Of a DNA stretch of 64,000 bases, positions 33,180 through 37,648 are shown in pieces. The stretch spans positions 1 to 64,000 of the forward strand of contig NZ_RBZW01000066.1 of NCBI RefSeq assembly GCF_006543045.1, written 5' to 3'. The first letter of the stretch is position 1. Every line of letters begins with the position of its first letter. The stretch is from Salinadaptatus halalkaliphilus (GTDB lineage Archaea; Halobacteriota; Halobacteria; Halobacteriales; Natrialbaceae). Below the pieces are notes generated by a model that was not told the origin of the DNA, made no database searches, and saw only the letters and a list, made by a program, of their open reading frames with translations. A program made the position numbers and the translations under genes.

Positions 33180-34274
33180 TCAATGCATCGACAGCGCGGG
33201 CCCGGATCGACCCAGAAGCAGCGTGAGAGCGACGGCAAGCAGGTAGATCAGGATGGCGACGACGATGATCGACCCGCCGGAGGGCAGACTCGCACCGATC
33301 GCGAACGCGAAGCCGCCGAGTACCGACGCCTGGCCGAACAGAATCGAGAGCGAGAGCGTCTCGCGGAAGCTCCGAGCAATCTGTGAGGCGGCCGCGACGG
33401 GGATCACGAGCATCCCGGCGACGAGGATCACGCCGAGCACCTGCATCGCTCCCACGACGACGACGGCCGTCATGACAACCAACAACGTGTTGTATCCCGA
33501 AACGTTGAATTGAGCGACCTTCGCAGCTTGCTCGTCGAAGGTGATGAACAGCAGCTGTTTGTAGGTGACGGCGACGACGGCGACGACCGAAACGGCGAGG
33601 ATCGCCATCATTCGTGCGCCACCGGCGGTGACGACCGACAGACTGCCGAAGAGCCACTCCTCGATATCGACGCCGATGCCCATCGATCCGCGACCCCAGC
33701 TGATCAGCAACGTTCCGATCGCGAAACTGCCCGCGAGCATGATCGCGATCGGCACGTCGCCGTACGTACTCGTCCGCTCGGTGAGCCACTGGACGGCGAG
33801 TGCGCCCAGGGCGCTGACGATCAGTGCGACCACGAGTAACGATCCTTGCCACCCCGTCACGGCGATGAACAGCAATCCGATGGCGACGCCGGCAAAGGCC
33901 GTGTGGGCGAGCGTCTCGCCGATAAGTGCCATCTGTCGGTGGACGAGGTAGGTGCCGACCAGCGGCGCGACGACGCCGATGAGCACGGCCGTCGCGATGT
34001 TTCGCCACATGAACGCGTGTTGGAAGACGTTCGTCCCGAGGTAGTAATCGAGCCACGCGCCGGCGATCAGGAACTGCTCGAAGGCGAGCCCGACGGCAGG
34101 GTACTCCCTGAGCCAATCGAGTGCGATAAAGACGACCATCGCCGCAGCCAACACACCGACGATCGCGACGCCGATCAGCTGTATCAGCTCTCGAGCGTCG
34201 GTTTCATCGCCTTGCAGCTGGCTGCCTTCGACGGCCGAGTCGGGATCGACCGCGTGGTCTTCACTCCGGCTCAT
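33180..34274 (-). CDS. Zinc/manganese ABC transporter permease (ZnuB-like)
   Basis: 364 aa. The N-terminal 30 residues are polar; about nine membrane helices follow. Family-3 ABC permease marks are HRQMALIGETLAHTAFAGVAIG (the EAA-like region) and VLGVILVAGMLVIPVAAASQIA. It forms the membrane channel for metal import with the ATPase and binding protein next to it. It overlaps the ATPase gene by one base. Zinc is inferred from the His-rich partners at this locus. Confidence 0.88.
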   Translation of the reverse strand: MSRSEDHAVDPDSAVEGSQLQGDETDARELIQLIGVAIVGVLAAAMVVFIALDWLREYPAVGLAFEQFLIAGAWLDYYLGTNVFQHAFMWRNIATAVLIGVVAPLVGTYLVHRQMALIGETLAHTAFAGVAIGLLFIAVTGWQGSLLVVALIVSALGALAVQWLTERTSTYGDVPIAIMLAGSFAIGTLLISWGRGSMGIGVDIEEWLFGSLSVVTAGGARMMAILAVSVVAVVAVTYKQLLFITFDEQAAKVAQFNVSGYNTLLVVMTAVVVVGAMQVLGVILVAGMLVIPVAAASQIARSFRETLSLSILFGQASVLGGFAFAIGASLPSGGSIIVVAILIYLLAVALTLLLGRSGPALSMH

Positions 34275-35014
34275 CAGTGGTGGTGATGAACGACCGTCCC
34301 CGTCGTCCCGTAGGCTTCGCTCAGTGCGTCGCTCTCGACGAACGATTCCGTATCGCCGTGATGGTACAGTGTCGTGTTGAGACAGGCGACGTGGTCCGCA
34401 CGGTCCGTGACGACGCCGATGTCGTGTTCGATGAGGACGATCGTGATGCCCGAATCGTTCAGGGAATCGAGCAACTGGTAGAAGGCGTCTCGCGACTCGG
34501 CGTCGACGCCGACGGTGGGCTCGTCCAGGGCGAGCAGATCCGCTTCGGAGGCGATCGCTCGCGCGATGTAGGCGCGCTGGCGCTGACCCCCAGACAGCTG
34601 GTTGATGCGCTGATCGGCAAGATTAGCGATATCGACGGTCTCGAGGGCCTCCTCGGCGATGCGTTTGTCCGCGTCGCTCAGCCGACCGTGGCCGACGTGG
34701 GCGAATCGCCCCATCCGCACGCACTCTCGGACCGTCACGGGCATCGTCCCGCCCTGGCTGGTCGCCTGCTGGGAGACGTAGCCGATCCGCTCGCCGTCGT
34801 CGAACTCGTCGACGGGTTCGCCGAACAGTTCGACCGACCCCTCGTCGGGACTGTGCAGGCCGAGCATGATGTGCAACAGCGTCGTCTTTCCGGAGCCGTT
34901 GGGCCCGATCAGTCCGAGGAAGTCACCGGCCTCGACGGTGAGGCTGACGTCCTCGAGGGCGGGTTTCTCCCCGTAGGCGAACGAGACGTTTTGAATATCG
35001 ACGACCGAACTCAC
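34274..35014 (-). CDS. Zinc/manganese ABC transporter ATP-binding protein (ZnuC-like)
   Basis: 246 aa. Walker A GPNGSGKTTLLH, signature LSGGQRQRAYIARA, Walker B DLLALDEPTVGVD and the switch His (IVLIEHDIG) are all present. The C-terminus ends in HHHH, a possible metal contact. It powers import through the adjoining permease. A separate 103-bp gap follows the binding-protein gene, so it may have its own promoter. Confidence 0.92.
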   Translation of the reverse strand: MSSVVDIQNVSFAYGEKPALEDVSLTVEAGDFLGLIGPNGSGKTTLLHIMLGLHSPDEGSVELFGEPVDEFDDGERIGYVSQQATSQGGTMPVTVRECVRMGRFAHVGHGRLSDADKRIAEEALETVDIANLADQRINQLSGGQRQRAYIARAIASEADLLALDEPTVGVDAESRDAFYQLLDSLNDSGITIVLIEHDIGVVTDRADHVACLNTTLYHHGDTESFVESDALSEAYGTTGTVVHHHH

Positions 35015-35117: not shown

Positions 35118-36506
35118 TTAGGCGGCATCGAGGGCCTGTCGAAGCGACGGGATCGTCACCTCTTCCATCTGTTCGATCCAGCCCCAGCCCTGCTCGCTCC
35201 AGGACTCCATCGTCCCCTCCGCGGGAGTGATGGGGACGTAGTCGTCGGCGTCGGTGTTTTCGAGCAGCAACTCGACCATCTGCGGAACGTCCTCGTCCGG
35301 GTTCGGCGTCTCGAAGGGATCGTAGAGGATCGTATCGATGTCGTGTTCTTCGACGACCTCGATCGTCTCGGCGATGTCGGCCTCGGTCTCGGCGGCGTCG
35401 GGCGAGATGCCGACCGGAGTATGTAACTCGAAGTCGTACCGGTGTTCGATGTACTGGAACGAGTCGTGGCCCGCGAAGACGGCGAGGTCGCGGCTGGCGT
35501 CGGCTGCGAGGTCCTGAAGCTGCTGATCGACCTCGGTAAGACGCTCGGTGTAGTCGGCCGCGTTGTCCTCGTAGACGGCCGCGTTATCCGGATCGACCGC
35601 GGCCAATCCGTCGGCGATCGTCTCGACGATGGTCTGTGCGAGCACCGGGTCGGCCCAGACGTGAGGATCGTAGAACTCGGGGGCGTCGTCCTCGTCTAAC
35701 TCCTCGACGACCGTCGCCGAGAGATTGTCGTTGCTCGTGTCCCAGACGACCTCGCCGTCGGCGACGAGTTCGAAGACGACGCGTGTGGTATCGACCTCGA
35801 GGCCGTGGAAGACAACGGAGTCGCCTTCGGATTCAATTTCGACGACACCTTCCTCGGCTAGGTCGGGGATGCGAGCGTCGATCTGGAACGGTTCGTTCTC
35901 GCCGAGTGGGAGCACTCGACCCTCGTCGTCTTCGAAGACGCCTTCGACGGCGACGGAACTGTCGAGTGGGATGTCGGGAAGTCCGCCGTGCCAGTGGTCG
36001 CCGTGCCAGTAGGTGATCTCGCCGCCCGTCTGTCGATCGTAGAGGTCGAAAGCATCGACGGTCACGTCGGTCGAATCGAACGCCTCGGCGTCGGCCGGCA
36101 CCCGGTCGTCCTCGACTGCCCGATCGATCGGGAGCAACTCGTTTTGCAGGCGGTCCATTCCGTCGATCAACGCCACATCGGTATCGGTCTCGAGGTCGGC
36201 TGCGATGTCCTGTGCCCAGGCAAACTCGGGGGTATCGAGGTAGACGAAGACTTCGGTGTCGGCGATTTCGCGTTGGAGGTCGGCTGGTGGCTCCCAGCCG
36301 TGTCCCATCTCGCCGGTCGTGACGGGATTTTCGATCGCCATCCGGTCGCCGGTAATCTCTTCGGTCCAATCCCAGAGCGCGAAAAAAGCGGCGTATCCGC
36401 CTTCTGCTGTGGTGCCGCCGTCGGGCTCGCTGAGACAGCCCGCAAGCGTCGCGAGTCCAACGCCGCCGGCCCCGCTCCGGAGGAACGAGCGTCGTGAGAG
36501 AGTCAT
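35118..36506 (-). CDS. Zinc-binding ABC substrate protein (ZnuA-like) with inserted His-rich domain
   Basis: 462 aa, far longer than the usual 300. Tat leader SRRSFLRSGAGGVGLATLAGC gives a lipid-anchored Cys24. The cluster A-1 binding protein is split: the N lobe carries GEMGHGWEPP (His69), the C lobe DPHVWADP (His282), FAGHDSFQYIEHRYDFE and YDPFETPN. Between them, residues 148-268 hold an extra domain with WHGDHWHGGLPDIP, homologous by eye to the repeats of the His-rich lipoprotein encoded upstream. The insertion replaces the short His loop of ordinary ZnuA and may pre-bind zinc. The protein captures zinc outside the cell and passes it to the permease. Confidence 0.88.
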   Translation of the reverse strand: MTLSRRSFLRSGAGGVGLATLAGCLSEPDGGTTAEGGYAAFFALWDWTEEITGDRMAIENPVTTGEMGHGWEPPADLQREIADTEVFVYLDTPEFAWAQDIAADLETDTDVALIDGMDRLQNELLPIDRAVEDDRVPADAEAFDSTDVTVDAFDLYDRQTGGEITYWHGDHWHGGLPDIPLDSSVAVEGVFEDDEGRVLPLGENEPFQIDARIPDLAEEGVVEIESEGDSVVFHGLEVDTTRVVFELVADGEVVWDTSNDNLSATVVEELDEDDAPEFYDPHVWADPVLAQTIVETIADGLAAVDPDNAAVYEDNAADYTERLTEVDQQLQDLAADASRDLAVFAGHDSFQYIEHRYDFELHTPVGISPDAAETEADIAETIEVVEEHDIDTILYDPFETPNPDEDVPQMVELLLENTDADDYVPITPAEGTMESWSEQGWGWIEQMEEVTIPSLRQALDAA

Positions 36507-36556
36507 ATCTCATAACACGCGCTCGAGCTTAAAAGAGTTATTATATTGGACTAGTG

Positions 36557-36565
36557 TATTAATAG
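36557..36565. promoter_or_regulatory. TATTAATAG motif upstream of the zinc-binding protein gene
   Basis: The motif (palindromic core TATTAATA) lies 51-59 bp upstream of the znuA-like start in AT-rich DNA. The same nine bases occur 53-61 bp upstream of the His-rich lipoprotein gene. It may be a shared TATA box or a zinc-responsive operator. Confidence 0.4.
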
Positions 36566-36651
36566 TAGAGAATACTCTGTGGTGTTCGGTTAGTAACGAG
36601 ACGCGTGGTCGAAACGGGCGATCGACGACCGGCGATAGCAGCGAGACGGGG

Positions 36652-37587
36652 TTAGTGGTCCTCGACCTCGACCGCGATCGGCGCGCTCTCCCAGTCGGCG
36701 TGGTCGTCGTGCCAGAGCTTGAAGACGACCTCGGTTTCGCTCTCGTCCTCCCCGTAGATGTGGACGTGATCACCGTGCCAGTGCTCGTCGGGATCGATCG
36801 CGACGATTCCGTCCTCGGCGTCGTCCGCGAGCGTCACGGCTAGTTCGTACTCCTCGTTGCCACCGATCGGGATCTCGTCACCGTGATCGTCGAGGAACTC
36901 GGCGCCCAGCGAGATGTTGTCGTCGACGTGAACGTGTGGCAGTTCACCGTCCCAGTGGCCGTCGTGGTACTCGGCGACCTCCTCGTGGGGGTCCTCGGAT
37001 CGATCGATAATCTTCAGCTCGTCGACCTCACCGTGCCCGTGGTCGTCGTGGTCGTAATCGTCGACCGCGACCTCGAGTTCGGGTGACTCGTAGACGACGT
37101 CGCCGCTATCGACAAGTTGGACGACGACCTCGGTAAAGCCCGCTTCCTCGCCGTAGACGTGGACGTGATCGCCGTGACCGTCGACGCTGACGGCGTCGTC
37201 GGCTGGCTCGATGGCGAGTTCAATGTCGTCCCCGAGCGCTACTTCGTCGCCGTCGTCGTCTTCGACGTACGCACCGACCGAGACGTAGTCGCCGTGGGGC
37301 ACCTCGAGCGGACCGTGGTCCCAGTGGTCACCGTGAACGTATGCAATCACCGCTTCGTCGAGATCTCGATCGAGAATTTCGAACTCGGAGATCCCGATCT
37401 CGTCGTGGACGTCACCGTCGTGGTCATCATCGTGATCATCATCATCGTCATCGTGATCGTCGTGGTCGCCGTCCTCGGAATCTCCACCGTTCTCGTCGCC
37501 GAGACAGCCAGCGATACCGAGTGCTGCGAGCGAGCCAGTAGACGCAAGCAACGTTCGCCGGGAGCGCAGACGTGGCGTGTCAGTCAC
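36652..37587 (-). CDS. His-rich lipoprotein with two copies of a zinc-site domain
   Basis: 311 aa. Tat leader RSRRTLLASTGSLAALGIAGC gives lipid-anchored Cys28. Residues 40-62 are a His/Asp linker (DHDDHDDDDDDHDDDHDGDV). Two repeats follow (66-176 and 190-308), each with a motif like YVHGDHWDHGPLEVP or YHDGHWDGELPHVH, a beta-sandwich-like middle (GDEVALGDD; GDEIPIGGN) and GHGDHVHVYGEE or WHGDHVHIYGED. The same domain is inserted in the neighbouring ZnuA-like protein. It probably binds zinc outside the cell and feeds the importer, a role like ZinT or AztD; this is inference. It lies upstream of znuA, same strand, with its own promoter-like region. Confidence 0.75.
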   Translation of the reverse strand: MTDTPRLRSRRTLLASTGSLAALGIAGCLGDENGGDSEDGDHDDHDDDDDDHDDDHDGDVHDEIGISEFEILDRDLDEAVIAYVHGDHWDHGPLEVPHGDYVSVGAYVEDDDGDEVALGDDIELAIEPADDAVSVDGHGDHVHVYGEEAGFTEVVVQLVDSGDVVYESPELEVAVDDYDHDDHGHGEVDELKIIDRSEDPHEEVAEYHDGHWDGELPHVHVDDNISLGAEFLDDHGDEIPIGGNEEYELAVTLADDAEDGIVAIDPDEHWHGDHVHIYGEDESETEVVFKLWHDDHADWESAPIAVEVEDH

Positions 37588-37639
37588 GTGTAGTCACCAT
37601 CATCCCGTTACGAGTGGTTGGTAATGAACTTGGCGATAT

Positions 37640-37648
37640 TATTAATAG
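37640..37648. promoter_or_regulatory. TATTAATAG motif upstream of the His-rich lipoprotein gene
   Basis: Same nine bases and nearly the same distance to the start codon (53 bp) as the copy before the ZnuA-like gene. The rest of the 407-bp space 37588-37994 holds no convincing gene; its right part is the hairpin element at 37855. Confidence 0.4.

Follow-up and report, generated by a model that had tools for sequence, protein, structure and literature searches.

Among the described systems that come closest to the one analyzed here, AdcA of Streptococcus pneumoniae binds zinc and has, besides its ZnuA part, a further metal-binding domain that contributes to capture; this C-terminal, ZinT-like domain assists zinc uptake and also binds cobalt and nickel (PMC7858048). 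PhtD, which is encoded next to a ZnuA-type protein, contains HxxHxH motifs in repeated units and has been proposed to scavenge zinc, gives the metal to AdcAII (PMC3842936). ZepA, a single protein that contributes to extracellular zinc supply and is reported to be absent from Archaea, has an Ig-like sandwich domain, the motif H-X2-9-H-F/Y-H, a second domain and PEP-CTERM (PMC10957091). AztD, ZinT and ZrgA are accessory periplasmic zinc proteins that serve a ZnuA or AztC. The fold of AztD is a β-propeller.

The window analyzed here, a stretch of 64,000 nucleotides from the haloarchaeon Salinadaptatus halalkaliphilus, encodes ZnuA-, ZnuB- and ZnuC-like proteins and, next to ZnuA, a TAT-type lipoprotein with 28 histidines in its mature 284 residues (Table 1). 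The lipoprotein contains two copies of a domain of approximately 113 residues, and a third copy resides within ZnuA. The ZnuC-like ATPase ends with the sequence VVHHHH.

Table 1. Features of the lipoprotein-znuABC locus (positions in the window)
Feature	Position	Strand	Details
Promoter/operator-like element upstream of lipoprotein gene	37617..37645	-	TTAATAANATCGYCANNTTCATTANNAAC
TAT-type lipoprotein gene	36652..37587	-	311 aa; signal RRTLL...GIAGC (twin-arginine + lipobox); two domain copies; no Pfam/NCBIfam family
Asp/His-rich tether, lipid-attached Cys to domain 1	37405..37467	-	from sequence
Domain copy 1 (lipoprotein)	37063..37392	-	motifs HGDHWDHGPLEVP; HGDHVHVYGEE; model pLDDT 91
Domain copy 2 (lipoprotein)	36664..37026	-	motifs HDGHWDGELPHV; HGDHVHIYGED; WHDDHAD; homology + model
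znuA promoter region	36530..36566	-	TATTAATAC...ATAATAACTCTTTTA
ZnuA-like cluster A-I substrate-binding lipoprotein gene	35118..36506	-	462 aa; PF01297 E 1.7e-42
Domain copy 3 (in ZnuA, His-loop position)	35724..36059	-	HGDHWHG present; motif 2 histidines absent
ZnuC-like ATPase gene	34274..35014	-	Pfam/NCBIfam
ZnuB-like permease (ABC-3) gene	33180..34274	-	PF00950 E 3.9e-52

A preliminary description of this DNA had placed the copies at residues 66-176 and 190-308 of the lipoprotein and 148-268 of ZnuA; the limits defined by a profile, 66-175, 188-308 and 150-261, respectively, agree with these within a few residues. The ZnuA copy shares 31% and 32% identity with lipoprotein copies 1 and 2 (the latter two are 40% identical to each other). 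Smith-Waterman scores for the pairs 1/2, 1/3 and 2/3 are 17, 14 and 19 standard deviations above those of 2000 shuffled sequences of the same composition, so that the similarity exceeds what an acidic, histidine-rich composition would produce, and chance likeness of this kind can be dismissed. The AlphaFold model of the lipoprotein, built from a 34-row alignment, has a mean pLDDT of 91.4 and comprises two β-sandwiches; that of ZnuA has a pLDDT of 86.4. All three copies show the same strand pattern of an Ig-like β-sandwich, and the series of 11 strands in the ZnuA copy is identical to that of domain 1. The predicted folds of the free and inserted copies match, and the refutation by unrelated folds that had been proposed at the outset thus fails. 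The suggestion of a single domain that occurs on its own as well as within the importer is also borne out.

Foldseek places the lipoprotein model closest to S-layer, Big-type and filamin Ig domains (lowest E 3e-6), with low whole-chain TM-scores of about 0.2-0.4, plausibly because the mutual orientation of the two modeled domains is uncertain. These neighbors favor the alternative that the role of the domain is structural, as an Ig-like spacer or as a surface domain of the S-layer or adhesin type, with histidines that are incidental or meant for another ligand and with a linkage to importers that results from operon co-transfer; the PKD/CARDB neighbors of some copies in very large secreted proteins point the same way. 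We nevertheless consider this explanation unlikely, given that no other feature of the family is as conserved as HxxHW, and that the domain adjoins metal importers of unrelated type and appears, in several lineages, to have been inserted into the loop with which ZnuA handles metal.

Among 189 distinct copies, the two histidines and the tryptophan of HxxHW are present in 100% of the 67 inserted in ZnuA, and the histidine that follows in 97%; the respective values for the 101 copies from smaller proteins are 88%, 95%, 99% and 74%. The putative metal ligands are therefore conserved among orthologues, as had been anticipated. The histidines of the second motif, HGDHVH, occur in 94/94/72% of the smaller-protein copies vs 49/61/29% of the ZnuA-borne ones. 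Because of this difference in conservation, motif 1 can be regarded as the core putative site and motif 2 as a mark of the free copies. For the ZnuA copy in the window, the preliminary description needs a correction: motif 1 (HGDHWHG) is kept, but the counterpart of HGDHVHVYGE reads EGDSVVFHGLE. The free and embedded copies thus differ in their histidine sets, and with the second-motif histidines lost, the ZnuA copy is only partly equivalent to the free ones.

The protein that accommodates the third copy is in other respects a regular member of its family, with a score of 146 bits against PF01297 (cut-off 29), a two-lobe fold and a model core closest to the ZnuA domain of AdcA (7jj8; TM 0.86 over the target). 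The histidine ligands H69 (GEMGH), H282 (DPHVW) and H347 (AGHDSF) lie in the motifs expected of zinc-type members, and a fourth, acidic ligand is likely to reside in YDPFE; the site is known from AdcA (PMC7858048). Just after the insert comes DPHVW (from residue 280); alignment to AdcA of S. pneumoniae picks up again at residue 276, where the histidine-rich stretch of AdcA ends. This places the domain at the usual site of the ZnuA histidine loop, as originally proposed. The loop itself, which is typical of zinc-type PF01297 members without being a requirement of the family, is absent before the second ligand of the window ZnuA, its place being taken by the domain. In other genomes, of Halorubrum (L242-L246), the same loop of ZnuA holds a different insert, WEWAGLYHLEAGTYTYTFHEGPDP...GHYVLFAQHAPAEF, flanked by long His/Glu tracts and matching no Pfam family above the cut-off; this position seems to take more than one type of module. 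The Salinadaptatus genome itself (C7, L070) and two further loci (L162, L163) encode a second ZnuA-like protein whose copy of the domain is divergent; at the latter two, a long histidine tract follows the domain, and the second zinc ligand is lost because DPHVW reads DAKFF. At one mollicute locus (L217, 10216-11367), a ZnuA with a partial, apparently decayed copy of 71 residues lies beside a ZnuA with two copies.

Sequence and profile searches yielded no match of the domain in Pfam, NCBIfam or PDB sequences, and the best profile match to a solved structure, 30 residues of an unrelated enzyme/regulator entry at E 0.05, was judged to be due to chance. The Pfam ZinT family, which covers ZinT and the C-terminal domain of AdcA, did not match either. 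Some Thermoplasmata bear a C-terminal copy of the domain, in a further likeness to AdcA; the difference is that the window protein has an Ig-like sandwich in the histidine loop instead of a ZinT-like domain at the C-terminus. The HxxHxH motif of the polyhistidine triad is present (HGDHWH, HGDHVH), but the PF04270 (Strep_his_triad) profile matched only 3 of 57 copies, with a best E of 0.0034 and, in one case, a score of 13 bits vs a cut-off of 27, and PhtD has a different predicted architecture. We know of no PhtD units inserted in ZnuA. The Ig-like sandwich predicted here differs from the β-propeller of AztD, and AztD, ZinT and ZrgA belong to other families, the domain having no Pfam or NCBIfam match. 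ZepA is alike in its Ig-like sandwich and in its histidine motif, which resembles HxxHWH; the distinction from ZepA is drawn from its published description. The open-access papers searched contain no description of the domain. It represents a new domain family whose accessory role would be of a familiar type.

The main feature of this family, which is invisible from one window, is its near-restriction to organisms of alkaline soda lakes across archaea and bacteria. A scan of 84,980 GTDB species genomes, for which the first profile (A1) proved too diverse, detected 62 loci in haloarchaea, Thermoplasmata, Firmicutes, Mollicutes, Actinobacteria, Myxococcales, Gemmatimonadetes and Bacteroidetes. 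Sixty of these come from haloalkaliphilic isolates or soda-lake samples and the other two (L122, L124) are of unknown origin; a caveat is that the scan pattern was drawn mostly from soda-lake sequences, although searches of whole groups with profiles point to the same result. Seventeen records are named isolates, all of which we take to be haloalkaliphiles: Natrialba, Natronococcus, Natrarchaeobius, Natronobiforma, Natronolimnohabitans, Halobiforma nitratireducens, Halorubrum alkaliphilum, Halorubrum vacuolatum and Natroniella acetigena. Nearly all of the other records bear sample codes that refer to Kulunda soda lakes, the sites being described elsewhere (PMC6146748, PMC6704655); the codes Tc-Br11 and MSAO presumably denote soda-lake material.

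Profile searches matched 28 of the 147 genomes of the order that includes Salinadaptatus and 19 of the 394 genomes of its phylum, with only three genomes beyond the order, all of one genus and likely methanogens. In Halorubrum, which served as a control, PF01297 is present in all 53 genomes and the domain gives strong matches in four, namely H. alkaliphilum, H. vacuolatum and the Tanatar-1 MAG, all from soda lakes, and one more genome; a fifth genome has a distant match. The order of the mollicute loci encodes PF01297 proteins in 55 of 61 genomes; the domain occurs in six of the genomes examined, where the ZnuA loop holds as many as three copies in tandem. A single genome matched in the class of Tindallia (1/196) and in the order of Natroniella (1/13), in each case the one at the center of the search. 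Viral or plasmid spread was considered and set aside, there being no relatives in IMG/VR contigs or PLSDB.

In a tree of the domain (58 rows, 116 columns), the haloarchaeal ZnuA inserts, in their main group, form a clade (100/97); the mollicute inserts nest within mollicute lipoprotein copies (98/93); and the thermoplasmatal inserts for the most part join thermoplasmatal C-terminal copies (99/98). A single clade of all ZnuA inserts was rejected (AU p 2e-12), and a clade of the haloarchaeal and mollicute inserts alone was borderline and not firmly rejected (AU p 0.052); these values are optimistic because the groups were chosen after the first tree had been seen. Given that the haloarchaeal, mollicute and thermoplasmatal inserts form no single clade, the same ZnuA loop has probably received the domain repeatedly, a pattern that gene conversion could mimic with 116 columns and tandem copies. 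The ZnuA inserts offer a natural series in which to study by experiment how modules are inserted into a single protein loop.

The domain had been viewed as a module for zinc capture, and ZnuA/ZnuB genes indeed adjoin 38 of the 62 loci. This scope now appears too narrow, since the domain also accompanies cobalt ECF importers and occurs in fusion with a NicO-like protein: seven loci, all in Firmicutes and supported by Pfam, are near CbiM/CbiQ, and in two haloarchaeal proteins part of a NicO-like transporter, with Pfam scores below the cut-off, is fused to the domain. In Natroniella acetigena, an inserted ZnuA coexists with a free copy near CbiM/CbiQ; the likely methanogens have the domain beside CbiM and cobalamin genes; and in Bacteroidetes, a copy lies downstream of a TonB-dependent receptor. 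That the domain is specific for zinc everywhere, with copies at cobalt loci binding zinc for another purpose, agrees with the prevalence of ZnuA/ZnuB and seems rather unlikely in view of the copies that Firmicutes and likely methanogens keep next to CbiM/CbiQ and cobalamin genes.

We therefore favor, with a probability of roughly 0.6, the interpretation that this is an extracytoplasmic domain for the capture of zinc, cobalt or nickel which feeds several importers and occurs as free and ZnuA-embedded modules. Alkaline, carbonate-rich brine should contain very little free zinc, cobalt or nickel. The Ig-fold module would bind a scarce divalent transition metal via HxxHW(H), with the second motif probably helping in the free copies. 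The lipoprotein, on its Asp/His-rich stalk, would display two modules at the cell surface and gather Zn2+ from the brine, raising the local supply to ZnuA; the embedded copy, in place of a flexible histidine loop over the cleft, would serve as an entry point from which the ion passes to H69/H282/H347, for import by ZnuB and ZnuC. By analogy with the PhtD/AdcAII pair (PMC3842936) and with the ZinT-like domain in AdcA (PMC7858048), the metal would be gathered by free domains and loaded into ZnuA by the embedded one. In other soda-lake organisms, the same module may act with cobalt or nickel importers, which fits the binding of both metals by the ZinT-like domain of AdcA (PMC7858048).

The many histidines and acidic residues and the tandem copies would also suit a domain that buffers or sequesters metals for protection, in the manner of a periplasmic metallothionein, rather than aiding import; this is quite improbable considering the coupling to high-affinity importers, not exporters, and the presence of the domain in the binding protein itself. 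Counting against a role in feeding importers are the 17 loci with neither type of importer nearby (some at contig ends), the very large secreted proteins (600-1055 aa) without a known partner and the loss of the second histidine motif from the embedded copy; weaker members of the family in haloarchaea without a known habitat count against capture in soda lakes. The wider proposition, on which we are evenly divided, is that this is a previously unrecognized metal-capture domain of a soda-lake gene pool rather than of a lineage, spanning at least 7 phyla, several independent entries into the ZnuA loop and importers of zinc, cobalt and probably nickel. As a domain that marks soda-lake organisms and is joined to several importers, it makes trace-metal limitation in these habitats directly testable.

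Very large secreted proteins of haloarchaea (629-1055 aa; L041, L042, L045, L052, L125) contain 1-3 copies of the domain, and several start with ...DNDHACTH... after the signal. The likely methanogens (L167, L169, L170) have the domain also in a 393-aa protein, at its C-terminus, and in a 186-aa protein, next to apparent formate dehydrogenase genes. Of 13 aligned upstream stretches from Natrialbaceae, 12 retain the element that precedes the lipoprotein gene, and the thirteenth starts inside it. In the Salinadaptatus genome the element is the sole exact site, with one further site at three mismatches; the match of a looser pattern in the vicinity of a PurU-like gene is probably due to chance, and a regulon defined by this element was discarded. 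The znuA promoter region of the window is related to TTATTAAC...ATAATAACNCTTTTA of the orthologues, and the znuA genes share an upstream element of their own that is similar in sequence to that of the lipoprotein gene.
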